Positions 16,194 through 58,277 of a stretch of 64,000 nucleotides of DNA are shown in pieces (position 1 is the stretch's first letter; the number at the start of each line of letters is the position of its first letter). The position numbers were made by a program, and so were the translations under genes. The notes beneath the pieces were generated by a model. The model saw only the letters and a list, made by a program, of their open reading frames with translations, searched no databases and was not told the DNA's origin. The stretch comes from Xenophilus azovorans DSM 13620 (GTDB lineage Bacteria > Pseudomonadota > Gammaproteobacteria > Burkholderiales > Burkholderiaceae_C), in assembly GCF_000745855.1 (NCBI RefSeq), contig NZ_JQKD01000004.1, positions 1 to 64,000 of the forward strand. Direction: 5' to 3'.

Positions 16194-16209
16194 CGAAGGG
16201 CGCGAGGCC

Positions 16210-17847
16210 ATGTACGTCAATCACCGCACGCCCGACAACACGCTGCGCTCGTGGTTGGCTCTGGGCGTGGTCGTGGTGATCCTGGCCGGCTGGGTGGCCA
16301 ACGTGGCCCTGTACTTCCGCGTGCCCTTGAACTTGTTCGCCCAGGGCCTCTGGCATGCCGCCAAGCAGACTCCCTTCCTGCCCTGGCTGTGGATCGGTCC
16401 CACCATTGGCCTGGTGGTGGGGGTAGGCGCGTTCATCTTCTGCGTGCGGCGCTACGCCAACCACTTCGGTGGCTCGGTGTTCGTGAGCCGCCTGCGTGGC
16501 CCGCGTATGGTGAGCCAGGCGCTGTTAGCCGGCACAACGCGCGGGCGCGCCGGCCAGCATGCGCTGCGTTTTGCGGGCATCCCGATTCCGCGAGAAGTGG
16601 AGAACACGCAGTTCTTCGTGGGTGGCTCCACCGGTACCGGCAAGAGCGTGTGCATCAGTGAGTACGTTGGCAGCGCGATGGCGCGCGAGGACCGCATCAT
16701 CTGCGTCGACCCCGACGGCGCCTCCATGCGCTACTTCTGGCGCCCGGGCGACATGGTCCTCAATCCCTTCGACCGGCGCAGCCAGGGCTGGAGCATCTTC
16801 AATGAGATTCGCACGAGCTTCGACTGCGAGCAGTACGCCATCAGCCTGATCCCGCGCAGCCCCTCCACCGAGCAGGAGACGTGGAACAGCATGGGGCGCA
16901 CCATCGTGAGTGAAACCCTCACGGTGCTGCTGCGCCAGGGCGCTGGCACTACCGAGCGCCTGGTGCACTGGCTCACCACCGCCAGCAACGACGACCTCAA
17001 GGCCCTGCTGGCTGGCACGCCCGCGGCCGGTTGCTTCCATGGCGCGCCCGAGACCCTGGCCAGCATTCGCACCGTGCTCACGCAATACATCACGCCGCAC
17101 AAGTACCTGCCCTCGGGCGATTTCTCGTTTCGGGATTGGCTGGACAACGGGAAGGGAAGCCTGTGGATCACCTGGCGCGAGGACATGCTGCAGGCGCTCA
17201 AGCCCCTGATCTCCTGCTGGACGGACGTCACCTGTGCGAGCGTGCTGTCCATGCCCGAGGATGCGAACCGGCGCATGCACCTCATCTGCGACGAACTTGA
17301 TTCCCTGGAAAAACTGAACTACCTGATCGACGCGGCAACCAAGGGGCGCAAGAAGGGGCTGAGGATCGTGGCGGGCGTGCAGTCGCTCGCGCAGCTCAAC
17401 GACATCTACGGCAGGGACGATGCGCTCACCTTGCGCAACTGCTTCCGAAGCTCCTTGTTGTGCGGCATCGGCGAACTCGACACCTACACGGCCGAGGAGT
17501 TCTCGCGGGGCTTGGGTGAACACACGGTGCTGCGCCGTGCGCCCAGCGTCTCGGTGGGCACCGCCGGCGGCAAGGGCACGCTGTCGCACCGCCAGGACAC
17601 GGAGCGTCTGGTGTCGCCGGCTGAATTCCACCTGCTGCCCAACCTCACGGGCTATGTGAAGCTGGCGGGCGACTACCCGATCTCGCGGGTGTCGATGAAG
17701 TACTGCCAGCGGCCGCTCGTGGCGCCGCCCATGCTGATGGCCGAGGGCTTCAACGACCGACCGCAGCAGACGAACTTGCTGTTCTCTGCGACGGCACAAA
17801 CGCAAGCAGTGGCTGCGGCGGCAACGTCCATGCGGTCCTCAACCTGA
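16210..17847 (+). CDS. trwB: TrwB/VirD4-type coupling protein
   Basis: 545 residues from ATG 16210. There are two N-terminal transmembrane segments (about residues 16-36 and 58-80). The RecA-like motor has Walker A VGGSTGTGKSVC near residue 137 and Walker B HLICDELDSLEKL near residue 356. Coupling proteins form a hexameric inner-membrane DNA pump linking the relaxosome to the secretion channel. Downstream is the relaxase gene after 12 nt, as in R388 trwBC. Confidence 0.93.
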   Translation: MYVNHRTPDNTLRSWLALGVVVVILAGWVANVALYFRVPLNLFAQGLWHAAKQTPFLPWLWIGPTIGLVVGVGAFIFCVRRYANHFGGSVFVSRLRGPRMVSQALLAGTTRGRAGQHALRFAGIPIPREVENTQFFVGGSTGTGKSVCISEYVGSAMAREDRIICVDPDGASMRYFWRPGDMVLNPFDRRSQGWSIFNEIRTSFDCEQYAISLIPRSPSTEQETWNSMGRTIVSETLTVLLRQGAGTTERLVHWLTTASNDDLKALLAGTPAAGCFHGAPETLASIRTVLTQYITPHKYLPSGDFSFRDWLDNGKGSLWITWREDMLQALKPLISCWTDVTCASVLSMPEDANRRMHLICDELDSLEKLNYLIDAATKGRKKGLRIVAGVQSLAQLNDIYGRDDALTLRNCFRSSLLCGIGELDTYTAEEFSRGLGEHTVLRRAPSVSVGTAGGKGTLSHRQDTERLVSPAEFHLLPNLTGYVKLAGDYPISRVSMKYCQRPLVAPPMLMAEGFNDRPQQTNLLFSATAQTQAVAAAATSMRSST

Positions 17848-17859
17848 TTGGAACTCGGC

Positions 17860-20800
17860 ATGCTGTCCTTCAAGTTCGTCGCTGATGCCACGCGCGCTGG
17901 CCACTACTTCGAGTCCTCGGACGACTACTACGGCAAGGAGGGGCACCGCGGGGACTGGATCGGGAGTGCCGTGGTGTCACTCGGACTCGAGGGTGCAACG
18001 GCCGTCGAGCGTGCGGTTTTCCAGGACCTGCTGGAAGGACGCTTGCCCGACGGCAAGCAGCTGCGAGTGAATCGCACGCACGCAAGCGCGGACCGCAAGG
18101 GCATCGACTTCACCTTCAGTGCGCCGAAGTCCGTGAGCATCCAGGCCTTGGTGCAGGAAGACGCGCGCATCATCGTGGCGCACGACACGGCCGTGAAAAA
18201 GAGCCTGGAGCTCATGCAGGAGTTTGCGGCCACGCGCAAGAAGGAGCGGGGCCTGTCTTTTCGCGAACGAACCGGGAATTTGGTGGCGGCGACCTTCCGG
18301 CATGAGTTGTCCCGTGCGCAGGACCCTCAGTTGCACACGCACGCCATCGTGATGAACATGACGCGACGCTCCGATGGCCAATGGCGGGCCCTTTCGAACG
18401 AGGATCTGCTGCGCAACGTCAAGATGGTGGGCGCGTTCTACCGCGCGACGCTCGCCGAGGAGCTCAAGAAGATCGGATTCGAGCTGCGCGAGACGCGCAA
18501 AGGTGGGTGGGAGCTCGCGCACATCTCCGACGCGGTGATCCGCCACTTCAGCCAGCGCAGCCGCGAGATCGAAGACTTGCTAGCTTCGCGCGGCCAGGCG
18601 AGGGAGACGGCGACCACCGCTCAGAAGCAGGTCATCACGCTGGCCACGCGGCGCAAGAAGACAGAAAACGACCGGGCGTGGCTGCGCGAGCATTGGCGTC
18701 AAACCGCGCGGGAGGCGGGTCTGGACCTGCAGGCGCGGGGTCCCTTGCAGGGCGACGTGCTGCCCACGCCGTCCTCGGCGGCTCGTCTTGTACGCGCGGT
18801 CCGCGAGAAGCTCACCGGCTCGAGCACGACGCGCCGCGCGGCTAATGACGCCATCGACTTCGCCATTGCTCACCTGGCCGAGCGCCAGGGCATCTTCTCT
18901 CGCGCCGAACTGCTGGAAGTGGCCTACGGCCGGGCGGCCACGCGCACCACAACGGTGGAAGTTCGCGCGGCATTGGATGCGGCCAAGACGGATGGTCGCC
19001 TGCTGCCGGAGTTGCCGCTGTATCAGACGGCACGGTCCCTGAACATCAGCGCCGGCGAGCTGGCCCGCGACCCCAAGGCCAACCAGTTCAAGGGACACGA
19101 CGACTTCGAGAAGTTGACGCGCGCCTCCTGGATCGCTCTGACCATGACCACGCGCGGGCAGCCGCAGGCCCAGGCCGGGGCGGTGGTGGACGCCGCCATT
19201 GCACGGGGAGCGTTGGTGCCCTCGGAGCCGCGCTTCGCGACGCCGCAGGCGCGGCGCAGCGAGATCCGGATCCTGGGCATCGAGAAGGCGGGTCGAGGAA
19301 CGGTGCCTGCGGTGGCGTCAATCGACAACGTGACGGCCATGCTGGCGGCGAGCAACCTCAACGCCGGGCAGCGCGATGCAGTGAGCATGGTGTTGACCGC
19401 GCGGGATCGATTCGTAGGCATCCAGGGCCTGGCCGGTACCGGTAAGAGTCACATGCTCGCGAAGGCTGTCGAGGGCATCAAGGCGGAGACGACGCGCCTG
19501 TCGGGCCCGCGAGGCTACCGCGTCATCGGCCTGGCGCCCTACGCCTCGCAGAACGAGGCTCTCGCGCTGCTCGGCATGGAGTCGCAGACGCTGGCTTCCT
19601 TCCTTGCGCGCGTGGGCCAGCACAGGAGCCTGGATGCCAAGTCGATCGTCTTCCTAGACGAAGCCGGTGTGGTGCCTGCCCACCAGCTAGAGAACCTCAT
19701 GGCGATTGTCGAGCGTCAGGGCGCGCGGCTGGTCCTGTGTGGCGACCGCAGGCAGACGCACGCGGTGGAGGCCGGCAAGCCTTTCGAGCAGCTGCAGGAT
19801 GCGGGCATGACCAAGGCCTTCCTCACGGAGATCAAGCGCCAGAAGAACGAGGCGATCAAGGCCGCCGTGGTGCACGCCGCCAACAACGAAGTGCCTAAGG
19901 CCGTGGAGGTTCTTAAGCCCCAGGTGGTCGAGGTCCGGCACGACCTGATGCGCTACGAGCGCCTAGCGCGCACCTACGTGCAGCTGCCGCAGGCCGAGCG
20001 CCGCGAAACCCTCATCGTGGCTGGGACCAACGATGCCCGGCGCGCCATCAACGCGCTCGTGCGCGAGGGGCTCGCCTTGCCCAACGGCCACCAGGTGGAG
20101 GTGCTCAACAACGTGGATATGACCCGCGCCGAGTTGAAGTCCGCGCAAAGCTACGAGGCGGGACAGATCGTGATACCTCAACGCACCTACGGCGCCTCCC
20201 TCATCAAGGACGAGCAGCTCACCGTCGTCTCGCATGACGTTCGTACCAACACGCTCGCGGTGCAGCGCGAGAACGGCCAGCAAGTCCGGTTCGATCCTAT
20301 GGTGAACACGATGCTGCGCCTGTACGAGCGTGACGTGGTCGACCTCGCGCCGGGCGACTGGGTGCGCGTGACGTCGAACAACCGGAGCCTGGGCATCTTC
20401 AACGGCGAGCGCTACGAGGTGCTGGCGGTCGACGCGAAGAACGTCACCCTCAAAGGCGGCGAAGCGAACGTCATGCTGGATCGAAGCCGTCCGCTGCATC
20501 TGCAGCACGGCTACGCCAGCACGATCCACTCGGCGCAAGGCCTCACAAAGAACCGCGTTCTGGTGGAAGCGAATACTAAAAGCCTCACTAGCAACCGTGC
20601 AGTCTTCTATGTGGCGATTAGCCGGCCCAGGCACGACATCACGCTTTTCACGGATGATGCGTCGAACCTGGCGGCCGCCATGAGCCGGGAACTTAAGAAG
20701 TACGCGGCCCTGGAGTTACGCGACGCAAAGAACGAGAGGGTTGTGTTGGAAGCCAAGACGACGCGCTCGCGACAGGCGATCCTCGCGCAGACGCTGCGCA

Positions 20801-20892
20801 AGGCAGGCAGGAGCCAAGGGGCGGCAGGGCCGATGGCCGCACGCACCTCCGATCCGCAACGCGCGAGCGGCGCGATCTCGCGAGGGCGTTGA
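17860..20892 (+). CDS. trwC: TrwC-like MobF relaxase-helicase
   Basis: About 1010 residues. I chose ATG 17860 (MLSFKFVADATRAGHYF) because it matches the TrwC N-terminus, where residue 1 to the catalytic Tyr spacing is conserved. Tyr16 and Tyr23/24 (DDYYGKEG) are the nicking tyrosines. The HUH histidines are His148, His159 and His161 (FRHE and LHTHAIVMN). The C-terminal helicase has Walker A GLAGTGKSHML near residue 525, then FLDEAGVV and a UvrD/RecD-like YASTIHSAQGLTKNRV motif. It nicks oriT, pilots the strand and unwinds it. Confidence 0.95.
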   Translation: MLSFKFVADATRAGHYFESSDDYYGKEGHRGDWIGSAVVSLGLEGATAVERAVFQDLLEGRLPDGKQLRVNRTHASADRKGIDFTFSAPKSVSIQALVQEDARIIVAHDTAVKKSLELMQEFAATRKKERGLSFRERTGNLVAATFRHELSRAQDPQLHTHAIVMNMTRRSDGQWRALSNEDLLRNVKMVGAFYRATLAEELKKIGFELRETRKGGWELAHISDAVIRHFSQRSREIEDLLASRGQARETATTAQKQVITLATRRKKTENDRAWLREHWRQTAREAGLDLQARGPLQGDVLPTPSSAARLVRAVREKLTGSSTTRRAANDAIDFAIAHLAERQGIFSRAELLEVAYGRAATRTTTVEVRAALDAAKTDGRLLPELPLYQTARSLNISAGELARDPKANQFKGHDDFEKLTRASWIALTMTTRGQPQAQAGAVVDAAIARGALVPSEPRFATPQARRSEIRILGIEKAGRGTVPAVASIDNVTAMLAASNLNAGQRDAVSMVLTARDRFVGIQGLAGTGKSHMLAKAVEGIKAETTRLSGPRGYRVIGLAPYASQNEALALLGMESQTLASFLARVGQHRSLDAKSIVFLDEAGVVPAHQLENLMAIVERQGARLVLCGDRRQTHAVEAGKPFEQLQDAGMTKAFLTEIKRQKNEAIKAAVVHAANNEVPKAVEVLKPQVVEVRHDLMRYERLARTYVQLPQAERRETLIVAGTNDARRAINALVREGLALPNGHQVEVLNNVDMTRAELKSAQSYEAGQIVIPQRTYGASLIKDEQLTVVSHDVRTNTLAVQRENGQQVRFDPMVNTMLRLYERDVVDLAPGDWVRVTSNNRSLGIFNGERYEVLAVDAKNVTLKGGEANVMLDRSRPLHLQHGYASTIHSAQGLTKNRVLVEANTKSLTSNRAVFYVAISRPRHDITLFTDDASNLAAAMSRELKKYAALELRDAKNERVVLEAKTTRSRQAILAQTLRKAGRSQGAAGPMAARTSDPQRASGAISRGR

Positions 20893-20901
20893 AAACAGCA
20901 T

Positions 20902-21606
20902 ATGGATGAGCGTATGAGCGAGAGAGCACGAACAGAAACGCAGGCGAGCGCGGACGACGCGGCCGATGTATCGAAGGCGATTCGCGCGCTGATGCACGAC
21001 ATGCGCTCGCCGATGCAGGCGATCCTTTCGTCGCTCGATGTATTGGACGACGCCTCGATGGATGCCGCGGCCAAGCGTGGCGTGGGCCGACTGCATCGCT
21101 CGGCACTTGCCTTGGACGCCCACCTCGGGGACTTGGCCACGCTGATGCTGATCCAAACGGGTGCTCACGTCGAGCGTGCGGTCGCCTTTGAAGTCGGCGC
21201 CTTGTTGGAAGAAGTCGGAGAGCTCTCGGCGCGTGCGGGAGTTTGCGTGTTGGCGCAAAAGCCGGTCGACCCCGTCTTTGCAGTGGCGGATCCCCTCCTG
21301 ATTCGCGCCATGCTGCTTCGCCTGGCGCATGCGTTCGGCAAACTCTCGGGTGCGGGCGCCATCACCGTGTCGGTTCGAGAGGCAGGTCCCGGGGATTCCT
21401 CATTGAGCCTTGTCCTGCAGTGCGCCAAGGATGTGCCTTGGCCCCAAGGCTTCGGGCAGCGACTTCTTCCTGTGCGGGTCATGGCTGAGGCCTTGGGCGG
21501 CGAATTGGACGTCAAAGAGCACTCATCGGTGGTCCTCACTCTTCCAGCACGGCTCGAGGACGCACTGGACGGGCAAAGTGCGACGGGGCCCTTGGGGCAT
21601 GCCTGA
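20902..21606 (+). CDS. histidine phosphotransferase-like protein (degenerate kinase, ChpT-like)
   Basis: 234 residues, soluble. The H-box is intact (ALMHDMRSPMQAILSSLDVL) within a DHp-type helical pair. The C-terminal half has the order of a HATPase domain but no N-box Asn (RAMLLRLAHAFGKLSG), no DxGxG and no GxGLG. It should therefore not bind ATP well. This combination is the hallmark of ChpT-type phosphotransferases that pass phosphate between receivers. It begins 9 nt after trwC and overlaps the next gene. Confidence 0.7.
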   Translation: MDERMSERARTETQASADDAADVSKAIRALMHDMRSPMQAILSSLDVLDDASMDAAAKRGVGRLHRSALALDAHLGDLATLMLIQTGAHVERAVAFEVGALLEEVGELSARAGVCVLAQKPVDPVFAVADPLLIRAMLLRLAHAFGKLSGAGAITVSVREAGPGDSSLSLVLQCAKDVPWPQGFGQRLLPVRVMAEALGGELDVKEHSSVVLTLPARLEDALDGQSATGPLGHA

Positions 21607-22081
21607 GCGCACAGTAGAGATCGCCATGACGTCCAAACCCTCCAATTGCTTGCCGGGGCCCATGTCCACGCGGGCGGCGACGCATGCCGCTCTTCGCGTG
21701 GCAATCCTGGACGACGACGCAGATGTGGTGGCGGCCATCGGCGAGGTCCTGCGGCGGCAGGGCTTGGCGGTCCAGGAATTCACTGACCCGGCCGAGCTGT
21801 CCCTGGCGATCCGTGAGCGCGTTTTCGATGCCTACGTGCTGGACTGGCTGCTGGGTGACGTCACGGCGCTGGACATCGTGGTCCAGCTGCGCGCGGACGC
21901 CGCCAACGAAGCGGTGCCGATCTTTTTGCTTTCAGGAAACTTGGCCCTCGGCGGGGTCCCCACCGATCCGGTGTTGGCGGCGGCGATCGCCGAACACCGG
22001 CTCTTCTATCGCGCCAAGCCGTTTTCCACGCGGCAACTCGCGCGCGACATTTGCATGGCATACGAAGGAGGTAGCCCATGA
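21599..22081 (+). CDS. single-domain response regulator (REC)
   Basis: About 160 residues from ATG 21599, which overlaps the upstream gene; ATG 21626 is an alternative. A 30-residue tail is followed by one receiver domain: VAILDDDADVV (acidic pocket), AYVLDWLLGD (phosphoacceptor Asp), LLSGN (Ser) and RAKPFS (Lys). No output domain follows, so it is a shuttle like CheY or Spo0F. Its AYVLDWLL box is nearly identical to that of the divergent regulator at 25571-26440, which suggests a common partner. Confidence 0.85.
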   Translation: MPERTVEIAMTSKPSNCLPGPMSTRAATHAALRVAILDDDADVVAAIGEVLRRQGLAVQEFTDPAELSLAIRERVFDAYVLDWLLGDVTALDIVVQLRADAANEAVPIFLLSGNLALGGVPTDPVLAAAIAEHRLFYRAKPFSTRQLARDICMAYEGGSP

Positions 22082-22608
22082 CACGGTTCATCCCATTTGG
22101 CTTGCGAACGGCGGCGTCGATCGCGGGGTTGATCGCGGCGCTCGGGGTTGGCGCAGGCGCCGCTGCCGCGCCCAACGCTTGCCCGAACGACGCGCTCCTG
22201 GAGATCGCCGGGGCGGTCAAGCCCAATTCGCCGCGCGGCTCCTTCCTCTTCAGTGAAAAGGACCTTCTCAATCTCAAGGCGGTCAAGCTGACCACGGCGA
22301 CAGCTTGGACGCCGCGCAGCGAGTTCATCGGCCCGGAGCTCTCGACAGTGCTCGAAGCCGCAGGCGTGCCCGCCACGGCCAAGGAGATGCGCTTCTATGC
22401 GATCGACGCCTATGAGATCACCATCCCAACCACCGACCTGGTCAAGTACCGGCCGGTCATGGCCCACACGCAAAATGGCGAGCGGCTGATGGTGGCCACC
22501 CGCGGCCCGGTCTTCCTCGTCTATCCGCGTGACCAGTACCCGGAACTCACCGCCATCAAAGGCCAGGCGCAGTTTGTCTGGATGGTGTGCAAGATCGTTG
22601 TCAAATGA
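22078..22608 (+). CDS. periplasmic SUOX-fold, putative pterin-binding protein (PruR-like)
   Basis: 176 residues. A Sec signal peptide (hydrophobic core to GAGAAAA, cleavage near residue 31) precedes one small molybdopterin-oxidoreductase-like (SUOX) domain: LLEIAGAVKPNSPRGSFLF, EFIGPELSTVLEAAGV, AIDAYEITIPTTDL and GPVFLVYPRDQYPEL. The domain is too short for an enzyme and lacks the conserved molybdenum Cys. In Agrobacterium a protein of this type, PruR, binds pterins and controls a membrane regulator. It is coupled by ATGA overlaps to the genes on both sides. Confidence 0.75.
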   Translation: MTRFIPFGLRTAASIAGLIAALGVGAGAAAAPNACPNDALLEIAGAVKPNSPRGSFLFSEKDLLNLKAVKLTTATAWTPRSEFIGPELSTVLEAAGVPATAKEMRFYAIDAYEITIPTTDLVKYRPVMAHTQNGERLMVATRGPVFLVYPRDQYPELTAIKGQAQFVWMVCKIVVK

Positions 22609-24101
22609 ATCGGGTCCCGCATGTGGATGCGACGCCACGAATGCGTGCGCACGGTCCCCTGGTTCGCTGGATTCTGAGGTTCGGTCGGCCGGTGGGAGTG
22701 GCACTGGTCCTATTGGCACTCCTTGGAACGGTCCTGTTGCACCGCGCGGCCAACTCGCGCAATCCATCCTCCGATTCCTGGCCGACCGAGGGCTACTACT
22801 TCGCGGGCGTGCAGTATCAGTTGGGCTTGCAGGCGCTGCGCCTGGAGATGGCGCGCTATCACCTGGCCATCGACCCCGAGGCCCGAGCTGCGCTTCGACG
22901 GGATTCGCTCGTTCTGCGGGATGTGCTCCACGCGAAGTACGCGATCCTCATGGAATCGCCGGAATTGAGGCCCTTTCTTCAGGCCGTGGAAGGCTTTCGG
23001 GGTTCGATCGAACCTTTGACTCGGATGAACAGCGAACTGGACACCATGGTCGATGAGGCCCTCGCTTCGCCGCAGGGCTATCGTCAGTTCGATGCGCAGG
23101 TCGAGCCGCTGAGCCAGAGGGTGGTGAGCATGGCCAACGACTTGAGGGTCGCAGAATTGACAAGTTTCGAGGCCGCCTTTGAGGCCCAGCGCCAGGCAAC
23201 CCTCACCTACCAGGAGGTCGGCCTGGCACTGTTGGCGATGCTGGGACTGGGGCTCATCACGCATGTGCAGATTCTTCGCAAGGAGGACCAAGCCCTTCGT
23301 AAGGAAGCGGAGGCCCGTGCAGAGGCGCAGCGCAGCGCGCAGGCGCGGGTAGCGCTGCTTGGCATGGTGTCGCATGAACTGCGAACGCCCCTGCAGACCA
23401 TGCTTGCGGACGTGGAAGTCTTGGCGGACACGACGGCGCCACGTGCCGGCCAACGCGCGGTGGACAGCCTCGAGCGCAACATTGGCCTCATCTCGGGTCA
23501 ATTGGATGACATCGCACAGTACACGCGGATGGTCAGCGGGACCTACGAGGCGCGCCGGGAACGCTTCGCGCTGGTGCCCATGCTTCAGCGCGTCCTGGGC
23601 GAGCATCTGGCGTCCGTGCAGCCCGGCCAGCAACTCGCGCTGGAGACTTCCATTCCCGACGATCTGTCGGTGGTCGGTGACCCGATCCGGTTGCATCAGG
23701 TCATCAACAACTTCCTGTCCAACGCGATCAAGTACGGCGGCCCGGACGTCATTTTGGTGTCGGCGCAGTTGGAGGACGGGAGTGCCTCGGGTCGGGCCGT
23801 GGCGGTGGAGGCGGCCATCGTGCGCGTAACCGATCATGGACCCGGGATTTCCGACTCGGACTTCGCAGCCATCTGGGAGCCTTTCGTGCGTGGGCGGCGC
23901 GGCCAAGGCCGCTCCCAAGGGAATGGTCTGGGGCTGGCCGTGGTTCGCCTACTGGCCGACTCCGTCGGCTGGGAGGTGGGCGTGGCCAGCGCCGCGGGCA
24001 ATGGCACCGCAGGCCCAGGAAGCGGGGCGACCTTCTTTGTGCGCTTCCCGCTGGTGCCGCCCGATGCAACCCAGGCGAGCGAGGTCGGCCGGTCTGGTTG
24101 A
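22605..24101 (+). CDS. membrane sensor histidine kinase
   Basis: About 498 residues from ATG 22605, overlapping the SUOX gene by 4 nt. The first transmembrane segment lies at about residues 28-47. A helical periplasmic region of about 150 residues follows, with a second segment at about 206-226. The cytoplasmic kinase has H-box MVSHELRTPLQTML, N-box NNFLSNAIKYGG, G1 DHGPGISDSD and G2 GNGLGLAVV, all intact. The obvious hypothesis is that the periplasmic region reads the SUOX-fold partner. It is the phosphate source for the REC and phosphotransferase encoded just upstream. Confidence 0.88.
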   Translation: MNRVPHVDATPRMRAHGPLVRWILRFGRPVGVALVLLALLGTVLLHRAANSRNPSSDSWPTEGYYFAGVQYQLGLQALRLEMARYHLAIDPEARAALRRDSLVLRDVLHAKYAILMESPELRPFLQAVEGFRGSIEPLTRMNSELDTMVDEALASPQGYRQFDAQVEPLSQRVVSMANDLRVAELTSFEAAFEAQRQATLTYQEVGLALLAMLGLGLITHVQILRKEDQALRKEAEARAEAQRSAQARVALLGMVSHELRTPLQTMLADVEVLADTTAPRAGQRAVDSLERNIGLISGQLDDIAQYTRMVSGTYEARRERFALVPMLQRVLGEHLASVQPGQQLALETSIPDDLSVVGDPIRLHQVINNFLSNAIKYGGPDVILVSAQLEDGSASGRAVAVEAAIVRVTDHGPGISDSDFAAIWEPFVRGRRGQGRSQGNGLGLAVVRLLADSVGWEVGVASAAGNGTAGPGSGATFFVRFPLVPPDATQASEVGRSG

Positions 24102-24151
24102 AAATATCAATCCGCCCGGCATCTTCGTTGGGCAAGTAACCTCTGACGACT

Positions 24152-24496
24152 ATGGCAACCATTGAAATGCAAATCGAGGTGCGCACCGAGATCGGGATCG
24201 CGCCGTCCGAGCAGGGCAGGGAGCAGGCGCTGACCGTGGGACTGCTCGTTGAGGTCGATGATCGGCACTCGGATGCGGCCGCGCGCGAGGGCAAGATCAG
24301 CGAGACGCTTGACTACGGCAAGCTGCGGCAGATCGTGCATCAGGTGTTCGCAGAGCGCCGCTGGGATTTGCTGGAGCAGGTGACCACGGCCATTCGCGAC
24401 CGCATCCGTGATCTGAAGCACGTGACCTCGGCGCGCGTGAGCATCACCAAGCATCACGCCTGGGCGGATGTGCCACGCCTGACCCTGACGCGATGA
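24152..24496 (+). CDS. FolB/FolX-like dihydroneopterin aldolase-fold protein
   Basis: 114 residues with the whole FolB domain: IGIAPSEQGREQALTVGLLV, TLDYGKLRQIVHQVF, WDLLEQVTTAIRDRI and VSITKHHAWADVPRLTL. Glu20 and the Lys near residue 100 align with the catalytic Glu and Lys of FolB. The protein could therefore act on dihydroneopterin or dihydromonapterin triphosphate-derived pterins, as aldolase or epimerase. It overlaps the reductase gene by 4 nt, so the two enzymes are co-translated. Confidence 0.75.
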   Translation: MATIEMQIEVRTEIGIAPSEQGREQALTVGLLVEVDDRHSDAAAREGKISETLDYGKLRQIVHQVFAERRWDLLEQVTTAIRDRIRDLKHVTSARVSITKHHAWADVPRLTLTR

Positions 24497-25197
24497 GCTG
24501 GGTGCTCGTCACTGGCGGCACGGCGCGCGGTGGAGAAGCCATCGTGCGGGCCATGCAGGGTGCCGGGCTGAATGTGGTGATCCATCACTCGCCACGCTCC
24601 GGTGATCGGGCTGCGTCCCTGTGCGCCGAGTTGGAAAGCCTGCGCGCTGGCTGCGCGCTCACCTGGGAGGCCGATCTGAGCCAGCCGGTGGACGTGCCGG
24701 GTTGGCTCATCGAATTGACGCCCGAGTTTTGCGTGTGCAATGCCAGCGTCTATCAGCCAAGTACCCTGGCTGACAGCGCGCGGGAGTCGTTAGACATGGC
24801 GGTGCATCTCAACGCGCACGCTGCCATCTTGAAGAGCTTGGAGCCGAGCCTGTGTTCGGTGGTGGCGGTGACGGACATCCACGTGGACCGGCCCGCCGCA
24901 GGCTATCTCTGGTACACGGTGGCCAAGGCGGCGCTGCAGTCGCTGGTTCTTACGCTGGCGATGGAGTGGGCACCGCGGATTCGCTGCAACGTGGTGGCGC
25001 CCGGCGCATTGCCGCTGCCCGAAGCCTGGACCGATGAAGGGCGTGCGGAGGCGATCGAACGATCCATTCCGCTGGGCCGCCTCGGCGGTTTCGAGGATCT
25101 CGCCTCAGCAGTGAAATGGGTGTTGTTGGACGCACCCTATGTGACTGGTCAGGTGCTCGCCGTCGATGGCGGGCGCAGCCGTTGGCTGCGCAATTAG
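24493..25197 (+). CDS. SDR pteridine reductase (FolM/PTR1/PruA-like)
   Basis: 234 residues, short-chain dehydrogenase fold. The NADP-site loop is VLVTGGTARGGEAIV, with HHSPRSGDRA at the phosphate-binding position typical of NADPH-dependent members. The active site is VTDIHVDRPAAGYLWYTVAK with YxxxK. The IRCNVVAPGALPLPE and VTGQVLAVDGGRS regions follow. The Asp-His-Val-Asp motif before the Tyr resembles PTR1/FolM, which reduce dihydropterins to tetrahydropterins. The Agrobacterium homologue PruA makes the pterin signal used by PruR. Confidence 0.78.
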   Translation: MSWVLVTGGTARGGEAIVRAMQGAGLNVVIHHSPRSGDRAASLCAELESLRAGCALTWEADLSQPVDVPGWLIELTPEFCVCNASVYQPSTLADSARESLDMAVHLNAHAAILKSLEPSLCSVVAVTDIHVDRPAAGYLWYTVAKAALQSLVLTLAMEWAPRIRCNVVAPGALPLPEAWTDEGRAEAIERSIPLGRLGGFEDLASAVKWVLLDAPYVTGQVLAVDGGRSRWLRN

Positions 25198-25310
25198 GAA
25201 TTCAGAAAAGCGCTGAATAGCGGCCAGGATTTCCGTACGGGGACGACATTGATGACAACGAATCAGGCGTCGGAGTACACCGGATTTCCCGGCTTCAATA
25301 CGATGTAGCT

Positions 25311-25670
25311 ATGCCTTTTCGGGCGCTTGCCGATCGCTATCTCTGGGTGCACAACGCCGATGGCCGCAAACTGCAGATAGAGGCGAGGCGGGTGGTCACG
25401 TTCAAACGCGGGCGGATGGAGTTCGGCGAGCCCCGTTATGTTCCAGAACGGAATCTCGCTGACCAGAGTGACCCAGAGACGCTACGTCGACCCCAACTGT
25501 CGAACATTCATTCGGGTCAGCGGCGCTCGATAACTTTGGATGGCGAGGAATTCGTGATTGCCATGACGACTTATCTTCGGGTCTCGCGCACCCTATGCAG
25601 GCCGTCGTTCTCCAGAGCGGAGAGCAGTAGCGGCAGGTGCGTGGGCTTCTCGATGACCTGCACGCGATAG
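25311..25670 (+). CDS. doubtful hypothetical ORF
   Basis: The first 80 codons (MPFRALADRYLWVHNADGRK onward) have plausible composition, but the last third is antisense to the BetR-like/REC gene and no ribosome binding site is clear. It may be a decayed gene. The 25198-25310 stretch before it holds nothing recognisable apart from a 12-mer, ACGAATCAGGCG (25258-25269), repeated at 26484-26495. Confidence 0.2.
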   Translation: MPFRALADRYLWVHNADGRKLQIEARRVVTFKRGRMEFGEPRYVPERNLADQSDPETLRRPQLSNIHSGQRRSITLDGEEFVIAMTTYLRVSRTLCRPSFSRAESSSGRCVGFSMTCTR

Positions 25671-26440
25671 GTCGTGGCCGCTGAGGCCACATCGACAGGA
25701 TCGGCGGAGCCGCTGCGCAGCTTGCCCGACAGCAGCACCACGGCTGGGGGTCGAGCTTGTGCGCGCAGGGTGGCCAAGAGCGGCGTCGCATTGCCTTCGG
25801 CCAGCAGCCAATCCAACACGTAGCCGTCATAGGGGCTGCTGGCCATCGCCTGGATCAGGTCGGCCGATCTTGAGAAAGGCACGGCCTTCAGGCCCGCCGT
25901 GCGCAACTGGTCGCAAAGGGCATGCGCGACGTCGTCCTCATCGTCCAGCACCGCGATGCGCATCGTCGCCTCGGGTTGGCGCTGCAACGTGACCTCCATG
26001 CGCGCGATGCGCTGCACATTTGCCGGTGCTGTGGGCGAGGACATCGTGGTGATTGGCACGACCAGATAGGTGCCCCCGTTGTCCACGGCCACGAAAGTGT
26101 CCACCTTGGAGTCGGGTGTTCCGTCGGCCAGCCAGATCATGCAGTCGACGTTCGCGCCGCCCATGCGCAAGGTGGCGCGCTTCGATGTGGAAGTTGCGTG
26201 TGCGGCCACGATGCCCGAGAGCGTCTCCCCGAAATTCTGGGCTAAGGAAGAAAGCTCCTCCAGCGTCCAGGCCGCACTCCGGTTCACACGCTGGTGTGCG
26301 GCCGCACGAGACAAATTGAAGAACTCGCCCACGAACGCGGCATGGCGGTGTTTTGCGATGCCGTGCCGTTCCAGTAGCGCACGAACCATGTGCGCGGCCA
26401 AAGAAAGAGGGCCTTCTTCGGGGGCGGGCGACTTGCTCAT
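25571..26440 (-). CDS. BetR-like HTH regulator with C-terminal receiver domain
   Basis: About 289 residues from ATG 26440; ATG 26485 is possible. The N-terminal 90 residues resemble a BetR-type helix-turn-helix: MVRALLERHGIAKHRHAAFV, then LSRAAAHQRVNRSAAWTLEE. A linker of about 60 residues follows, then a complete receiver: RIAVLDDEDDVAHAL, GYVLDWLLAEG, VVLLSGKLRSG and IEKPTHL. HTH-then-REC is the reverse of the usual order. It is the likely output of the phosphorelay, is divergent from virB1, and probably acts on the palindrome between them. Confidence 0.78.
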   Translation of the reverse strand: MSKSPAPEEGPLSLAAHMVRALLERHGIAKHRHAAFVGEFFNLSRAAAHQRVNRSAAWTLEELSSLAQNFGETLSGIVAAHATSTSKRATLRMGGANVDCMIWLADGTPDSKVDTFVAVDNGGTYLVVPITTMSSPTAPANVQRIARMEVTLQRQPEATMRIAVLDDEDDVAHALCDQLRTAGLKAVPFSRSADLIQAMASSPYDGYVLDWLLAEGNATPLLATLRAQARPPAVVLLSGKLRSGSADPVDVASAATTYRVQVIEKPTHLPLLLSALENDGLHRVRETRR

Positions 26441-26522
26441 GGGGCGGGACCTATCTCCATTTGTAAACGCAGTTGTCCAGGACACGAATCAGGCGCAGAG
26501 TCTTGAAAAACACTACAAACAA

Positions 26523-26553
26523 ACACTTTATCCAGACGGATGGATAAAAGTGT
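26523..26553. promoter_or_regulatory. operator-like palindrome between the regulator and virB1
   Basis: ACACTTTATCCA (26523-26534) and TGGATAAAAGTGT (26541-26553) form an inverted repeat with one extra A, spaced by GACGGA. It is AT-rich in an otherwise GC-rich region and sits in the divergent promoter region 26441-26640. It is a natural binding site for the BetR-like/REC regulator. Confidence 0.65.
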
Positions 26554-26640
26554 AAAGCGTTTCTTTATTTCGACTCGAATGTACCAGGAAAGTATTCAGC
26601 TTCGCAAAACTTGCGCGGCTGATTTCATCGGAAAGTCACG

Positions 26641-27285
26641 ATGTTCCCATCGGCAGCCCTGATCGAACAATGTGCCCCGCAAGTGTCGCCGGTGCTGATG
26701 CAGGCGCTGGTACGCACTGAATCGGGAGGCCGGCCGCTGGCCATCGGCATGGACCGCGCGCAAGGAAGCGTGAAGCAGCCGCAAACGCTGGAGGAGGCGG
26801 TCGCCATGGCGAAAGGCCTGGCTGCCGCCGGCCGCAAGTTCTCCGTGGGGCTTGCCCAGATCCACGTCAGCAACGTGAGCCTGTACGGCATGAGTTGGGA
26901 GCAGGCCTTCGACGCCTGCCAGAACCTGACCGTGGGCCAGAAGATCCTGTGGAACTTCTTTCACCGCGCCACGGCGTCGGGCTACACCGGGGTGGCGGCG
27001 ATCTGGGCGGCGCTGCGCGGCTACAACTCCGGCGGCGCTGATCGCACGATCAGTGACGACTATGCCAGCCGCATCTTTGCCTACATGAGCAGCGCGCCGC
27101 CGCTGGTGCAACTCGGTCGGGGCATCGCTATGGCGAGCGCGTCACCTCTCACCGCAGCACCGAGTTCAGCGGTCAAGGTTGACGTTGCGTCGATCGCCCC
27201 GGCAGACAACGCGGCAAGCCCCCAGCGCCGACCCGGCGAATCCCTGGACCTTTTCGAGAAGCCCGGCGCCAAAGCCGGTTTCTGA
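26641..27285 (+). CDS. virB1: VirB1-like lytic transglycosylase
   Basis: 214 residues. An SLT-type domain has the catalytic Glu in ALVRTESGG, then FSVGLAQIHVSNVSLYGMSW, and ALRGYNSGG. No clear signal peptide is visible at this start. The protein would open peptidoglycan for assembly of the transfer channel. It heads the secretion operon, and its promoter region holds the palindrome at 26523-26553. Confidence 0.88.
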   Translation: MFPSAALIEQCAPQVSPVLMQALVRTESGGRPLAIGMDRAQGSVKQPQTLEEAVAMAKGLAAAGRKFSVGLAQIHVSNVSLYGMSWEQAFDACQNLTVGQKILWNFFHRATASGYTGVAAIWAALRGYNSGGADRTISDDYASRIFAYMSSAPPLVQLGRGIAMASASPLTAAPSSAVKVDVASIAPADNAASPQRRPGESLDLFEKPGAKAGF

Positions 27286-28138: not shown

Positions 28139-30667
28139 ATGTCTGCCGTCCCCAAGCTTCAGGCCGAGCGAAACGTGGCGAGCTGCCTGCCGTACTCGCA
28201 GCAGATCGACGAGCACACGGTGATCACCTACGAGGGAGACCTCACAGAGACGATTGCCGTGCATGGCCTGTCCTACGAGACCATCGGCCACAGGGAACTG
28301 GACAGCCTGAACCAGCAATGGTTCTCGGCCATCAACAACGTCGCGCGCAGCCCGAACGTGGCCCTGTGGACTCACCTAGAGCGTCAGCGCGTGCGCTTCG
28401 ATTTCTCCGGCGTCGCGTACGACAACGACCTGTCCACCGAGTTCGCCCGCCAGTACGCCGGCAAGTTTGGCGACGAGGCGCAGTTCACCAATCGTCTGTT
28501 CCTCTCGCCCGTGTACCGCCTGGCCGGCAACAAGGCGGACAAGGTGAGCATCCGACTGTCAAACCGTACCAGCGAGGGCATGGCAGAGCTTCGCCTACGA
28601 GCGCGTGACGAGCTCGCAAAGATTTCTTCGCAATTGCTGGCCAGCCTCAAGCGCTACCACCCGCGGCGCCTGGGCACGTACTGGCAAGGGGGGCAGGAAG
28701 GCCAAGGTGGTCAACTCTGCTCGCGCACGGCCGGCTTCTACGCCCGCCTGCTCAACAATACCGATCGGCACATCAACCTCGGGGCCTACGAACTCAGCCA
28801 CGGCCTGCAGTCCGCGGCCCTGAACTTCGGCGCCGAGACCGTGGAGATTCAGGGACCGGCGGGATCGCGATTTGCCGCAGTCCTCTCGCTGGTCGCCCCG
28901 TACCGCGCCGAGCAGCTCGATGCCAAGGTCTTCGAGGGCCTGCTGTCGGCACCCTTCGAGTTCGTGCTCAGCCAATCCGTCACCGTGATGGCCTTTGACA
29001 AGGCCGATGCCTTGCTGCGCACCCAGTACAACAAGATTAAGTCCACCAGCGACAACGCGCAGCAGATGGAAGAAGTCGCGGCCGCTCGCACCCAGCTGCA
29101 GGCCGGGCGCTTCTCCATGTTCGACCACGAACTGGTCCTGATCGTCTACGGCGACACCGTCAAGGCGCTGAACCAGAACGTCAACGCAGCGGTGACGCTG
29201 CTGGACCAGAAGAGCATGAACACCTCGCGCGAGCGCGGTGGGGCGCTCATCTGCACCTACTTCAGCGTGTTGCCAGGCAACTTCAAGTACGGGCGCATCC
29301 GCGCCATGCCCATCAGCAGCAAGAACTTCTCCAAGTTCTTTCCGATGCACAACCACCCGCAGGGCAATGCGCAGGGCAGCCAGTGGGGGGCACCCATTGC
29401 GCTGCTGAAAACCGTGGCGGGTGGGCCCTATTTCTTCAATTACCACGTCAGCCGCAACCGGCTGCTGGAGCAAGGCATTCGGCTGGACTATGAAGAAGAG
29501 CCAAGCAGCGGCAACGCGGAGCGGGAAGAAGGGGTGGCCGCCAATGACGACGCTGATAAGCCGCGGGCCCATCGCAAGGAGTTGGGCAACTACAAGATCG
29601 TCGGCCGCTCCGGCGGGGGCAAGACGGTGCTCAAACTCGCTCTGCGCCTGCTGGCACGGCAGCAGCGTCACGTGCAGGAAAAGCCCCTGAAGATCTTCAG
29701 CTTCGACAAGGACTACGGCGAGGAGATCTGCATCCGCGCCATGGGCGGGCGCTACTTCCGCATCGCTGGCGGTGAGCCGACCGGAATGAATCCGTTCTCG
29801 CTGCCGCCCACGCCTGAGAACTTGTCGGTCATCCTGAGCATTCTTTCCTGGAATGCGCAGTTCGACGGTCGGTACGCCATGACGCACAAGGACGAGGAAG
29901 ACCTGCTGCGCGCGATCCGGCAGGTCTACGAACTCGAACCCCGATATCGGCGCTACGCGCGCGTGAGGGATTCGTTGCCGACGCACCGCGAGAACAGCCT
30001 CTATCACGCGCTTGGACGCTGGTGCGACGGCGGCGCTTTCGCCTGGGTGCTGGACAACGACGCCGACCGCTTCGACTTGACAGGGGCCGACACCTTCGGC
30101 TTCGACATGACGAACTTCCTGGATATCGAGGAGGCGCGCACCCCGATCCTGCGCTACCTCATTCACAAGATCGGTCGGGAGGCTTCGGGTGCCCCTCACA
30201 TCATCGACATCGCCGAGGCGTGGAAGGCCCTGAAGGATCCTTCGATGCAGGTCTTCATCGAGAACAAGGGTCGCACGATTCGCAAGGAGGACGGGATCAT
30301 GGGACTGGACACCCAGGAGCCGGGCGACATCAGCAAGTCCCCGCTGGGCAGCACGCTGCTGTCGCAGTTCCCCACCCAGATCATCCTGCCCAATGGCCAG
30401 GCCGAGCAGGACGACTACATCGAGGGGCTGAAGCTCACGCCGCGCGAGTTCCACCTGGTCAAGAACACCGAGGAGAACGCCGGCAAGTTCCTGCTCAAGA
30501 AAGGCGCCGAGTCGGTGATGGTGAACATGGACCTGAGCGGCCTGGACGACATGCTGGCGGTGCTCTCGGCGAGCCTGGACAACGTCGAGGTCATGCATGC
30601 GGCCATCGAAGAGGTGGGTGACGCCCCCCGGGACTGGCTGCCCTTGTTTCTGCGAAGGAGAGTGTGA
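28139..30667 (+). CDS. virB4: VirB4-like secretion ATPase
   Basis: 842 residues. The N-terminal CagE/VirB4 domain includes TYFSVLPGNFKYGRIRAMPI and GGPYFFNYHV. The C-terminal motor has Walker A IVGRSGGGKTVLKLAL near residue 493 and Walker B HIIDIAEAWKAL near residue 686. The usual acidic residue after the Walker B Asp is displaced (IDIAE in place of IDE). VirB4 energises pilus assembly and substrate movement at the cytoplasmic face. Confidence 0.93.
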   Translation: MSAVPKLQAERNVASCLPYSQQIDEHTVITYEGDLTETIAVHGLSYETIGHRELDSLNQQWFSAINNVARSPNVALWTHLERQRVRFDFSGVAYDNDLSTEFARQYAGKFGDEAQFTNRLFLSPVYRLAGNKADKVSIRLSNRTSEGMAELRLRARDELAKISSQLLASLKRYHPRRLGTYWQGGQEGQGGQLCSRTAGFYARLLNNTDRHINLGAYELSHGLQSAALNFGAETVEIQGPAGSRFAAVLSLVAPYRAEQLDAKVFEGLLSAPFEFVLSQSVTVMAFDKADALLRTQYNKIKSTSDNAQQMEEVAAARTQLQAGRFSMFDHELVLIVYGDTVKALNQNVNAAVTLLDQKSMNTSRERGGALICTYFSVLPGNFKYGRIRAMPISSKNFSKFFPMHNHPQGNAQGSQWGAPIALLKTVAGGPYFFNYHVSRNRLLEQGIRLDYEEEPSSGNAEREEGVAANDDADKPRAHRKELGNYKIVGRSGGGKTVLKLALRLLARQQRHVQEKPLKIFSFDKDYGEEICIRAMGGRYFRIAGGEPTGMNPFSLPPTPENLSVILSILSWNAQFDGRYAMTHKDEEDLLRAIRQVYELEPRYRRYARVRDSLPTHRENSLYHALGRWCDGGAFAWVLDNDADRFDLTGADTFGFDMTNFLDIEEARTPILRYLIHKIGREASGAPHIIDIAEAWKALKDPSMQVFIENKGRTIRKEDGIMGLDTQEPGDISKSPLGSTLLSQFPTQIILPNGQAEQDDYIEGLKLTPREFHLVKNTEENAGKFLLKKGAESVMVNMDLSGLDDMLAVLSASLDNVEVMHAAIEEVGDAPRDWLPLFLRRRV

Positions 30668-32826: not shown

Positions 32827-33644
32827 ATGAGAAGCAGGCCTACTTCGCGCAGGCGCTGGACTGGGACAGCCAGCAGCGCCTGGCCCTGGAGCGCAGGGCG
32901 TCGCGCAGCGTCAGGATCGCGTGGGCCTGCGGCATCCTGTGCGGGCTCAGTGTCTTGAGTGTCACCTTCCTGCTGCCGCTCAAGCAGATCGTGCCGGCCG
33001 TCATTCGCGTGGACAACGCCACCGGTGCCTATGACGTGCAGGCGCCAGGCGAGACCGTGCAGATCGGCCGCCCGCGTGACCAGAAGATTGTCCTGTCGGA
33101 CGTGGCGCGCTATGTCCTGGCGCGGGAAGGCTTCACGCGCGGCGAGGCCGAGTCCAACTACAAGACCGCCTACCTGATGTCCTGCGGACCCGTGCGCACC
33201 GATTGGGAGAACTACTTCAACCCCGAGATCAACCCGCAGTCACCGGTCAAAACCATGACCCCCACGGATTCGGAGCGCGCCGAGATCCAGAGCATCACCT
33301 TCCTGCCCACGGAGCAGGACGATCTGCGCGTGGCGCAGGTGCGCTTCGACAAGACCGTCACGCGCGGGGTCTCGCCGCCAGTGCGCACGCGCTATATCTC
33401 GACGCTCACCATCCGCTACGACCAAGGAAACATTCCTTCGCAGCTGAAGGACCTGTACGTCAATGCCTTCGGTTTCTGCGCCTTGAACTATCGCCGCGAT
33501 CAGGAGGGGGTGCCGCAAGTGCTTGGCCAACCGGGAAGTGCTCCGCCGCCGACGGGTAGTGCGGGCGCGGCAGGTTCTGGCTCCGGCGGTTCCAGCACCG
33601 TCACTCCTGCGAACTTCGGGATGGTCCAGGGAGCGCCCCGATGA
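32823..33644 (+). CDS. virB8: VirB8-like scaffold protein
   Basis: 273 residues. A short cytoplasmic N-terminus and one transmembrane segment (about residues 28-53, AWACGILCGLSVLSVTFLLP) are followed by the NTF2-like periplasmic domain. That domain has YVLAREGF, SFxSPxxP-like positions NPQSPVKTM and the RYISTLTIRY strand. A Gly/Ser-rich C-terminal tail is present. It is coupled to virB7 and virB9. Confidence 0.9.
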   Translation: MNEKQAYFAQALDWDSQQRLALERRASRSVRIAWACGILCGLSVLSVTFLLPLKQIVPAVIRVDNATGAYDVQAPGETVQIGRPRDQKIVLSDVARYVLAREGFTRGEAESNYKTAYLMSCGPVRTDWENYFNPEINPQSPVKTMTPTDSERAEIQSITFLPTEQDDLRVAQVRFDKTVTRGVSPPVRTRYISTLTIRYDQGNIPSQLKDLYVNAFGFCALNYRRDQEGVPQVLGQPGSAPPPTGSAGAAGSGSGGSSTVTPANFGMVQGAPR

Positions 33645-34468
33645 GGCTGATTGGCGTGGCGTTCGCGGCCGGGTTGGCATGCGTCGGGTCTGTCGGGCCG
33701 GCGTGGGCCGAGGTCGGAACCATTCCTTCGTCTAGCGACGCTCGGATCCAGACGGTGCGCTACACCGGCGACAACGTGATTCGCATCGTCGCGGCCGAGG
33801 GTGTCGTCACCACGATCGAATTCAGCAGGAAGGAAGAGATCAAGGATTTCGCCATGGGCGATCGGGATGCCTGGCACGCTGCCATCAACGGCAACCTGTT
33901 CGTGCTCAAGCCCAAGGACGTGAGGGCAGACACCAATCTGACCATCTTCACCAACAAGCGCGCCTATCTCTTTCAGCTGCGCACCACCTCGCGTACCGCC
34001 CGCAACGTCGCGTACTGGGTGCGGCTCCAATACCCGGAGCAGGAAGCCGGCACCCCCGAGGCCGTTGCCCTGGCCAAGTTGGAAGCCGAGCGGCGCCAAG
34101 TCAAGGCAGATCTCCAGGCCTCAGGCCAGGAAGGCACGCTCAACTACGACTACTGGATCGTGGGCCCCCAGGAGTTGCAGCCTCTGGCCATGCACGACAA
34201 CGGCCGCCAGACTTTCTTGCTCTTCAGCGCCGCGAACCCGATGCCCGCGGCCTTCGTGATCGAGCCGGACGGCACGGAGAGCCTGGTGGACTACCACGTC
34301 GAAGCCGACACGATGGTGCTGCACCGGGTCGTGCAGCGCCTCCTGCTGCGCCGTGGCGGCCTGGTGGCAGGCATCACCAACCGCTCGCCCTCGCTGCCGA
34401 TTGAGTCTGCGCCCACGGGGACTGCCAGCGGCAAGGTGCAACGCGCGATCCGCGAGCCAGCCAACTGA
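33641..34468 (+). CDS. virB9: VirB9-like outer-membrane core protein
   Basis: 275 residues. The signal peptide ends near residue 24 (GPAWA). The N-terminal beta domain has RIQTVRYTGDNVIRIVAAEG and NLFVLKPKDVRADTNLTIFT. The C-terminal beta sandwich has YDYWIVGPQELQPLAMHDNG and AFVIEPDGTESLVDYH. The charged linker between the domains is about 30 residues. It starts inside the virB8 stop codon region (4-nt overlap). Confidence 0.92.
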   Translation: MRLIGVAFAAGLACVGSVGPAWAEVGTIPSSSDARIQTVRYTGDNVIRIVAAEGVVTTIEFSRKEEIKDFAMGDRDAWHAAINGNLFVLKPKDVRADTNLTIFTNKRAYLFQLRTTSRTARNVAYWVRLQYPEQEAGTPEAVALAKLEAERRQVKADLQASGQEGTLNYDYWIVGPQELQPLAMHDNGRQTFLLFSAANPMPAAFVIEPDGTESLVDYHVEADTMVLHRVVQRLLLRRGGLVAGITNRSPSLPIESAPTGTASGKVQRAIREPAN

Positions 34469-34477
34469 GGTGCGCCC

Positions 34478-35719: not shown

Positions 35720-35721
35720 GC

Positions 35722-58270: not shown

Positions 58271-58277
58271 GACCTCT

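Follow-up and report, generated by a model that had tools for sequence, protein, structure and literature searches.

According to the available parts of Rucker et al. (2026; PMC13259868), known pterin sensing serves biofilm and cyclic di-GMP (c-di-GMP) control by DcpA of Agrobacterium and its relatives. The periplasmic protein PruR lacks the molybdenum cysteine, carries a tryptophan in its place, has a conserved tyrosine and prefers tetrahydromonapterin as ligand; pairs of PruR and a histidine kinase are known from bioinformatics, and those parts state no output for them. The same parts describe the conversion of dihydromonapterin to tetrahydromonapterin by FolM, and give TGX3RXG and YX3K as the pteridine reductase signature. 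In Agrobacterium, c-di-GMP inactivates both the type IV secretion system (T4SS) and the type VI secretion system, and PruA and DcpA are mentioned in the discussion of that work, as far as its available portion goes (PMC6771610). Considering these systems, a gene set of Xenophilus azovorans DSM 13620 was investigated. It lies in a stretch of 64,000 nucleotides, hereafter the window (contig NZ_JQKD01000004.1, positions 1 to 64,000), and encodes, between a MobF relaxase and virB1, a degenerate histidine kinase, a lone receiver, a PruR-type protein of the sulfite oxidase (SUOX) fold, a membrane histidine kinase, a FolX-like and a FolM-like enzyme, and a divergent regulator with a BetR-type helix-turn-helix and a receiver (BetR-receiver; table 1). 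We propose, with a probability of roughly 60%, that this segment is a pterin-responsive two-component switch by which a MobF/VirB conjugative element governs its divergent virB operon.

The sensor of the window is, by homology, a pterin-binding protein. When compared with all solved chains, the SUOX protein matched entries named "Pterin Binding Protein" (7KOS and 7KOU, E = 1e-13) and further chains (7RKB, 7KP2, and 7KOM, E = 2e-11 or better), whereas the best sulfite oxidase reached only E = 0.16 in this single-sequence search. A profile built from ten relatives gave E = 6.5e-39 for pterin-binding chains against 0.012 for the best sulfite oxidase. The SUOX fold named in the original prediction was thus confirmed as that of a PruR-like protein, far nearer to solved pterin-binding proteins than to sulfite oxidases. 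No cysteine was conserved in the alignments and the tryptophan after the T.T motif was nearly invariant; in the ten-sequence alignment, Trp66 was nearly invariant and Tyr99 invariant. By our own reading, these two residues would be the ones named for PruR in the available text of PMC13259868. The protein has 176 aa, against about 170 expected of a PruR. Its N-terminus, a possible secretion signal, is by eye hydrophobic and ends in AAAA, and the E. coli homologue is now named "putative pterin-binding protein" by NCBI.

The cassette of SUOX protein, kinase, and BetR-receiver was found beside the transfer genes of many plasmids. In tblastn searches of PLSDB, the window SUOX protein had homologues on 546 plasmids (393 conjugative, 134 non-mobilizable, and 19 mobilizable) and the BetR-receiver on 465 (382 conjugative, 54 mobilizable, and 29 non-mobilizable), both counts referring to homologues at any distance and not to whole cassettes. 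Twenty-six plasmid regions, chosen from the match lists for diversity and not at random, were read; they represent 25 distinct types and one repeat. All three genes were present in 20 of the 25 types, and transfer genes flanked the cassette in 18 of these 20. In 14 of the 20 (L019, L021, L023, L024, L026, L029, L126–L131, L143, and L146), the BetR gene adjoined the tra/virB operon and diverged from it, where adjoining allows small same-strand genes or a PLD-family gene in between. In the remaining flanked types the cassette lay about 3 kb away (L125), about 6–11 kb away (L123 and L124), or at the record end beside traM (L025). Independent cases number fewer than 20, because several types are closely related (L026/L126/L127, L025/L129, L130/L143, and L029/L131/L146). 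The recurrence of the three genes at tra/virB promoters of many plasmid types is beyond chance.

Three kinds of conjugation machine were involved: the 14 adjoining types comprised five VirB-type (MPF_T), eight F-type, and one MPF_I. The F-type cassettes followed traY or traA or, in L143, an unnamed gene before traE. On their far side, traM was annotated in four (L029, L128, L131, and L146), and an unnamed gene occupied the place of traM in L024, L129, and L130. MOB-suite rated L026, L126, and L127 non-mobilizable, and it counted several F-type plasmids as mobilizable only, although VirB/tra genes were annotated on them. Near-identical cassettes were also abundant, in counts that reflect the sampling of clinical isolates and with the position read for representatives only. 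The Klebsiella MPF_I cassette matched 221 PLSDB plasmids, of which 218 were conjugative; in 211 the match covered at least 80% of the query. The E. coli MPF_T cassette matched 139 plasmids (136 conjugative; 129 at this coverage) and the Klebsiella F-type cassette 41 (39 mobilizable and 2 conjugative; 39 at this coverage). Among 5,426 E. coli genomes, 66 had the E. coli cassette, 63 of them at this coverage, at 68 places, none of them chromosomal. In a survey centered on the relaxase, a relative at E = 1e-150 was present, among 150 family genomes, in the own genome only; MobF relatives occurred on 1,140 plasmids, with about 40–43% identity among the 30 matches listed. Some cassette plasmids had further features: two tandem BetR-type regulators precede the GNAT, SUOX, and kinase genes of a Pantoea ananatis plasmid (L131, 11971–14074), and an acyl-homoserine-lactone synthase and a LuxR-type gene lie on a Serratia plasmid (L143, 18581–19973). 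On Rhizobium/Agrobacterium plasmids (L027, 14776–18583; L028, 14782–18640), the SUOX and kinase genes are followed by an HD-domain phosphohydrolase and not by BetR, and both kinases have an intact W-X7-E motif.

The same genome carries a similar arrangement a second time. On contig C61, the genes of VirD4 and MobF are followed immediately by those of a SUOX protein and a hybrid kinase, and contig C74 encodes virB11 to virB1 plus a divergent BetR-receiver; these separate contigs are probably fragments of one second MobF/VirB element. The transfer proteins of the two elements were very similar (VirD4 86%, MobF 82%, VirB1 72%, VirB3-like 84%, VirB4 90%, VirB5 82%, VirB6 73%, VirB8 86%, VirB9 85%, VirB10 83%, VirB11 87%, and SSB 72% identity, with VirB2, 3, 5, 6, and 8 named by position); VirB2 fell outside the 72–90% range, being aligned over 39 residues only (46%). 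In contrast, identity was 34% for SUOX, 28% for the kinase (23% in the periplasmic part and 35% in the kinase part), and 45% for the BetR-receiver. The two BetR proteins were sisters with full support (100/100). Beyond the C61 kinase, sequence resembling transposase remnants was seen by eye. On C61, MobF and SUOX have neither a degenerate kinase nor a lone receiver between them. These relay extras therefore look like a local variation of the window element, in which separate proteins seem to have taken the place of a hybrid kinase's receiver.

Judging from the trees, cassette modules move from one conjugation machine to another. A BetR tree of 29 rows paired the E. coli MPF_T cassette with the Klebsiella MPF_I one as sisters (96/87) inside an otherwise F-type set (100/100), and the states T, F, I, and none required at least eight changes. 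The tree of SUOX plus kinase also joined this pair (95), with the window on a long branch of unsure placement. The cassettes differ in their accessory enzymes as well. A GT9-like protein accompanies cassettes on Enterobacterales and Paraburkholderia plasmids (profile comparison: 100% probability and 41% identity) and is mostly annotated as a glycosyltransferase, once as a lipopolysaccharide (LPS) heptosyltransferase; a GNAT acetyltransferase accompanies some others (among them the F-type L131), and a pteridine reductase those of Pandoraea, Trinickia, and Herbaspirillum. A role of the GT9-like and GNAT enzymes in decorating a pterin is speculative.

In the window, the accessory enzymes suggest where a pterin could come from. 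The protein called FolB-like in the original prediction does belong to the Pfam FolB family, but its best solved match was the FolX epimerase of E. coli (1b9l, E = 1e-5), and the generic folB (48.9 bits), folX (42.2), and E. coli folB (23.3) models of NCBIfam all remained below cut-off. The neighboring short-chain dehydrogenase/reductase (SDR) carries TGGTARGG and YTVAK, that is, TGX3RXG and YX3K, and its best solved match was pteridine reductase 2, as expected of the FolM/PTR1-like reductase that had been predicted. All four strong reductase neighbors of the trio that were examined (window, L021, L043, and L044) had both motifs, a count limited to strong neighbors, as other loci hold weaker SDR matches (39–100 bits). 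FolX feeds the tetrahydromonapterin route. Because FolX and FolM form this route, and its product is the preferred ligand of PruR, the two enzymes beside a PruR-like sensor look like a make-and-sense circuit; the enzymes of the element probably make a reduced pterin. A PRK09135 search of the own genome returned five SDRs at E = 1e-40, and among the four sequences examined the arginine form occurred only in the window SDR. The E. coli-type FolM model had no match in this genome at 1e-30, and only one other FolB-family member was present. Thus, as far as these four SDR sequences indicate, the element may supply the tetrahydropterin step of the cell.

The signalling proteins were characterized in the same way. 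Both main kinase domains were detected, so that the complete membrane kinase of the original prediction is borne out, and TorS was its best-scoring model; its gene is coupled to that of the PruR-like protein through the ATGA overlap at 22605. The divergent regulator was likewise recovered: its BetR domain scored above cut-off and its receiver part below (Response_reg 26 bits, cut-off 30.2), with the acidic pair, acceptor Asp, Ser/Thr, and Lys present by eye in the alignment. The near-identical boxes AYVLDWLL and GYVLDWLL mark one receiver family, because the two window receivers are paralogues (41% identity over 113 residues, E = 8e-17) and the lone one is nearer to BetR receivers (E = 5e-13 or better) than to the tested hybrid-kinase receivers (E = 9e-5 or worse). 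The label "ChpT-like" was not upheld, and ChpT identity of the 20902–21606 product was rejected, with 17 bits (cut-off 225) and 14 bits (cut-off 240) for the ChpT models. It is a degenerate histidine kinase that keeps an H-box, HDMRSP, by eye and has a decayed ATPase part; its nearest compared sequence was the hybrid kinase of the second element (29% identity), and a single-sequence structure model gave a helical hairpin followed by an alpha/beta part (pLDDT 57.8).

Open reading frames, family scans, and the sequence placed all the predicted genes in the predicted order (table 1), and the gene overlaps were real, with ATGA at 22078 (receiver/SUOX), 22605 (SUOX/kinase), and 24493 (FolB/FolM). 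The degenerate kinase frame begins 10 bases past the relaxase stop and overlaps the receiver gene (in-frame ATG at 21599) by 8 bases. The transfer genes are flanked by ParB, a ParA-like ATPase (below cut-off), ArdC, RadC, KfrA, and tyrosine recombinases, and genes for PrpD and acyl-CoA dehydrogenase with high third-position GC start at about 59.9 kb; these markers suggest an integrative element within the 308-kb contig. A tyrosine recombinase and a KfrA gene at 55168–61819, near the onset of chromosome-like high third-position-GC genes, mark its probable right end. The element also encodes a subtilase-family protease (51571–54072) and a PLD-like protein (50254–51501).

Table 1.— Features of the window, with positions counted from its first nucleotide.
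Feature	Position	Strand	Basis
VirD4/TrwB-like coupling protein	16198..17847 (start approximate)	+	Named by position and similarity; 86% identity to contig C61 copy
MobF/TrwC relaxase-helicase	17848..20892	+	Pfam TrwC 275 bits; NCBIfam MobF 289 bits (cut-off 100)
Degenerate histidine kinase, candidate phosphotransferase	20902..21606	+	HisKA 18.6 bits (cut-off 26.9)
Stand-alone receiver	21599..22081	+	Pfam Response_reg 36.5 bits
PruR-type periplasmic SUOX-fold protein, 176 aa	22078..22608	+	Matches to solved pterin-binding chains
Membrane histidine kinase, DcpA-like periplasmic region, no fused receiver	22605..24101	+	HATPase_c 71.5 bits; HisKA 32.3 bits
FolX-like dihydroneopterin(-triphosphate) epimerase/aldolase	24152..24496	+	Pfam FolB 58.9 bits
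FolM/PruA-like pteridine reductase (SDR)	24493..25197	+	PRK09135 176 bits (cut-off 288); TGX3RXG and YX3K
BetR-domain helix-turn-helix and receiver regulator, divergent from virB1	25571..26440	-	BetR 46.3 bits (cut-off 21.6)
BetR/virB1 divergent intergenic region	26441..26640	.	Candidate inverted repeat 26523–26553
virB1 lytic transglycosylase, VirB operon gene 1	26641..27285	+	Pfam SLT 40.6 bits; VirB1 model 50.5 bits (cut-off 212)
virB4	28139..30667	+	Similarity to annotated plasmid VirB4 and position; 90% to contig C74 copy
virB9, virB10, virB11	33641..36792	+	Similarity to annotated plasmid proteins and position; 83–87% to contig C74 copies

Based on these observations, a mechanism can be outlined. 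The FolX-like and FolM-like enzymes would convert dihydroneopterin compounds of the host into tetrahydromonapterin or a closely related compound, some of which would reach the periplasm. There the PruR-like protein would bind it and contact the DcpA-like periplasmic domain of the kinase. The kinase would alter the phosphorylation of the lone receiver and of the BetR receiver, perhaps via the degenerate kinase, and the phosphorylated BetR-receiver would raise or lower the virB operon. The ligand, the order of the relay, the DNA target, and the sign of regulation are all put forward in this conditional sense, and we infer virB control from the position of the cassette only. In general form, BetR-receiver, PruR-like protein, and kinase would be a plug-in transfer regulator for different conjugation machines, in many cases accompanied by a further enzyme (reductase, GT9-like, or GNAT).

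Several results weigh against this proposal. The first concern the cassette away from transfer genes. Among the 25 plasmid types, L020 and L022 had no transfer gene within 15 kb of the cassette, in four (L027, L028, L030, and L144) the SUOX–kinase pair lacked BetR and had no T4SS next to it, and L145 lacked SUOX and combined its BetR-receiver with a different kinase. In the genome collection we sampled the best 80 of 204 SUOX-profile relatives, nearly all from Paraburkholderia and its kin, and searched flanks of at most 10 kb to either side with our own reference proteins as T4SS markers (E = 1e-5). BetR was near SUOX in 76 of the 80, and no convincing T4SS marker was near any, with weak VirB11-like matches in three only. 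Nine SUOX loci of related genomes (L032–L040) had no adjoining BetR and no T4SS marker but a 49-bit VirB11-like match in L038. The BetR domain itself is rare: in a phylum-wide draw of 398 genomes, only four had it, one of them being the own genome. The other three genomes contained four BetR loci, of which three had SUOX and kinase and one (L139) did not, and none had a T4SS marker. Two side observations belong to these chromosomal surveys: in three Chromobacterium loci without BetR (L082, L107, and L108; 12–15 kb), SUOX and kinase stand beside two weak VirB11-like genes (46–48 bits), and near the trio of the Paraburkholderia xenovorans chromosome (L110, 16646–18208) an ADP-ribosyltransferase-type Pfam match, Enterotoxin_a, scored 155 bits.

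Other opposing results concern the parts of the cassette. FolX stood beside the trio in the window only, among the loci examined, and neither FolX nor FolM was found on C61 or C74. The FolX-like protein fell below the cut-offs of the curated specific models, as did the SDR (176 of 288 bits for PRK09135 and 83 of 249 for PRK06483), and the GT9-like protein of E. coli was assigned to no Pfam family. The window kinase has F-X7-G at the place of W-X7-E; by alignment, the Glu of this motif was present in 1 of 95 BetR-linked kinases (mostly Paraburkholderia and kin), compared with 10 of 15 classed without BetR, the latter including two loci cut by contig ends (L031 and L068). Window-type kinases are therefore, on alignment evidence, a sister subfamily of the PruR-DTB (DcpA-TorS-BaeS) kinases, outside the DTB group. 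A shared operator was also sought in 14 divergent intergenic regions, compared in three groups, and none was found: no 11-mer of the first member of a group, with one mismatch allowed, recurred in more than one other member. The palindrome in the window (26523–26553) was no better than chance, as 6 of 60 shuffles were as good.

So the association of a pterin-type two-component cassette with conjugation stood in part: it extends to the second element and many conjugative plasmids, and is broader than originally proposed, but the trio also exists on chromosomes without T4SS. Likewise, co-occurrence beside MobF/VirB clusters applied to SUOX, kinase, and BetR at tra/virB loci and not to FolX. Since the trio occurs on such chromosomes, the cassette is not always a transfer regulator, and transfer control is an inferred role; it follows that the cassette is a general signalling unit, either recruited by plasmids or kept on chromosomes from plasmids. 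This bears on what it reports. An account with close to even odds is that it reports the envelope redox or folate/pterin state of the host, FolX and FolM merely filling the reduced pterin pool. Pterins are redox active and redox sensing has been proposed (PMC13259868, available parts); the Enterobacterales plasmid cassettes that we read have no FolX/FolM-like gene, and in many Burkholderiales the trio is chromosomal without T4SS. On the other hand, enzymes are encoded together with the sensor (FolX and FolM in the window, pteridine reductase in L021, L043, and L044, GT9-like or GNAT elsewhere), and strong divergence between the sensors of two elements in one genome would be unexpected if both read one host pool.

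A bolder and doubtful thought is that conjugative elements use pterins as private pheromones. Each element's enzymes (epimerase and reductase in the window; reductase, GT9-type glycosyltransferase, or acetyltransferase on others) would make or decorate a pterin to be read by the matching periplasmic receptor–kinase–BetR chain, so as to count donors or recognize neighbors already carrying the element; sensors (23% for the kinase sensor and 34% for SUOX) would diverge for specificity while the transfer machine (72–90%) is conserved. It is unlikely that the cassette is a passenger signalling unit with another output, for example envelope sugars via the GT9-like enzyme. The chromosomal copies without T4SS, the LPS heptosyltransferase annotation of one GT9-like enzyme, and L020 and L022, away from transfer genes, would fit such a unit, but BetR was divergent in 16 of 16 adjoining cases (the 14 types, the window, and the second element, not all independent), with three machine types, and on F-type plasmids the cassette sits between traY/traA and traM. 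Finally, a molybdenum-cofactor enzyme (MsrP/sulfite-oxidase-like) whose kinase senses oxidative damage is very improbable, since, in spite of a 31-bit Pfam Oxidored_molyb match and many records naming homologues molybdopterin-dependent oxidoreductase, the oxidoreductase identity was rejected on nearest solved chains that are pterin-binding proteins, with the missing cysteine, the tryptophan after T.T, and the NCBI name of the E. coli homologue pointing the same way.

If the cassette is indeed a transfer switch, the likely output of a PruR–kinase system can be read off the map: it would be the transfer-operon promoter. Several plasmid lineages of Enterobacterales have related cassettes at this position, and at least one of these lineages carries resistance genes. 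What PruR–kinase systems control, and which signal sets transfer competence where the cassette stands at the traJ position of F, can now be tested. Among the matches listed in open-licence literature, there was no paper on pterin control of conjugation (the nearest was PMC6771610) and no sensor assigned to transfer control of the cassette-bearing plasmids, in agreement with the earlier view that no pterin-using conjugative element has been described. In a term search, "plasmid", "conjugat", and "mobile" were absent from the main text of PMC13259868.

Compared with known systems, the cassette combines several familiar arrangements. Like TraJ and the alternative regulators of F-like plasmids, it lies where the tra operon begins. 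In F, the traM–traY interval holds traJ. TraJ-negative groups exist, one of them with another DNA-binding protein at the traJ locus according to the available parts of PMC5102898, from whose main text "histidine kinase", "two-component", and "response regulator" were absent in a term search. TraJ is a single regulator, whereas the cassette comprises sensor, kinase, and receiver. Quorum-type control of conjugation is known from TraR/TraI of Ti plasmids and from peptide pheromones. The window resembles it in having a signal-making enzyme, encoded by the element, beside a receptor that would govern transfer; however, the signal would be a pterin, sensed in the periplasm via a binding protein and a kinase, and may or may not pass between cells. 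The PruR-DTB kinases, as far as the available text describes them, share with the window the order of a PruR gene and then the gene of a kinase whose periplasmic domain resembles that of DcpA, and keep the W-X7-E motif where the window kinase has F-X7-G. The PruR–PruA–DcpA pathway of Agrobacterium likewise joins a PruR-type periplasmic binder to a signal protein in the membrane whose periplasmic domain is similar, with the ligand supplied by a pteridine reductase (PMC13259868, available parts). Its output is c-di-GMP via DcpA, whereas the window has a histidine kinase and a BetR-receiver, an added FolX-like gene, and a place beside virB of a conjugative element. The occurrence of related sensors on hundreds of plasmids, at one and the same control point in most of those examined, suggests a hitherto undescribed mechanism for turning DNA transfer on or off.

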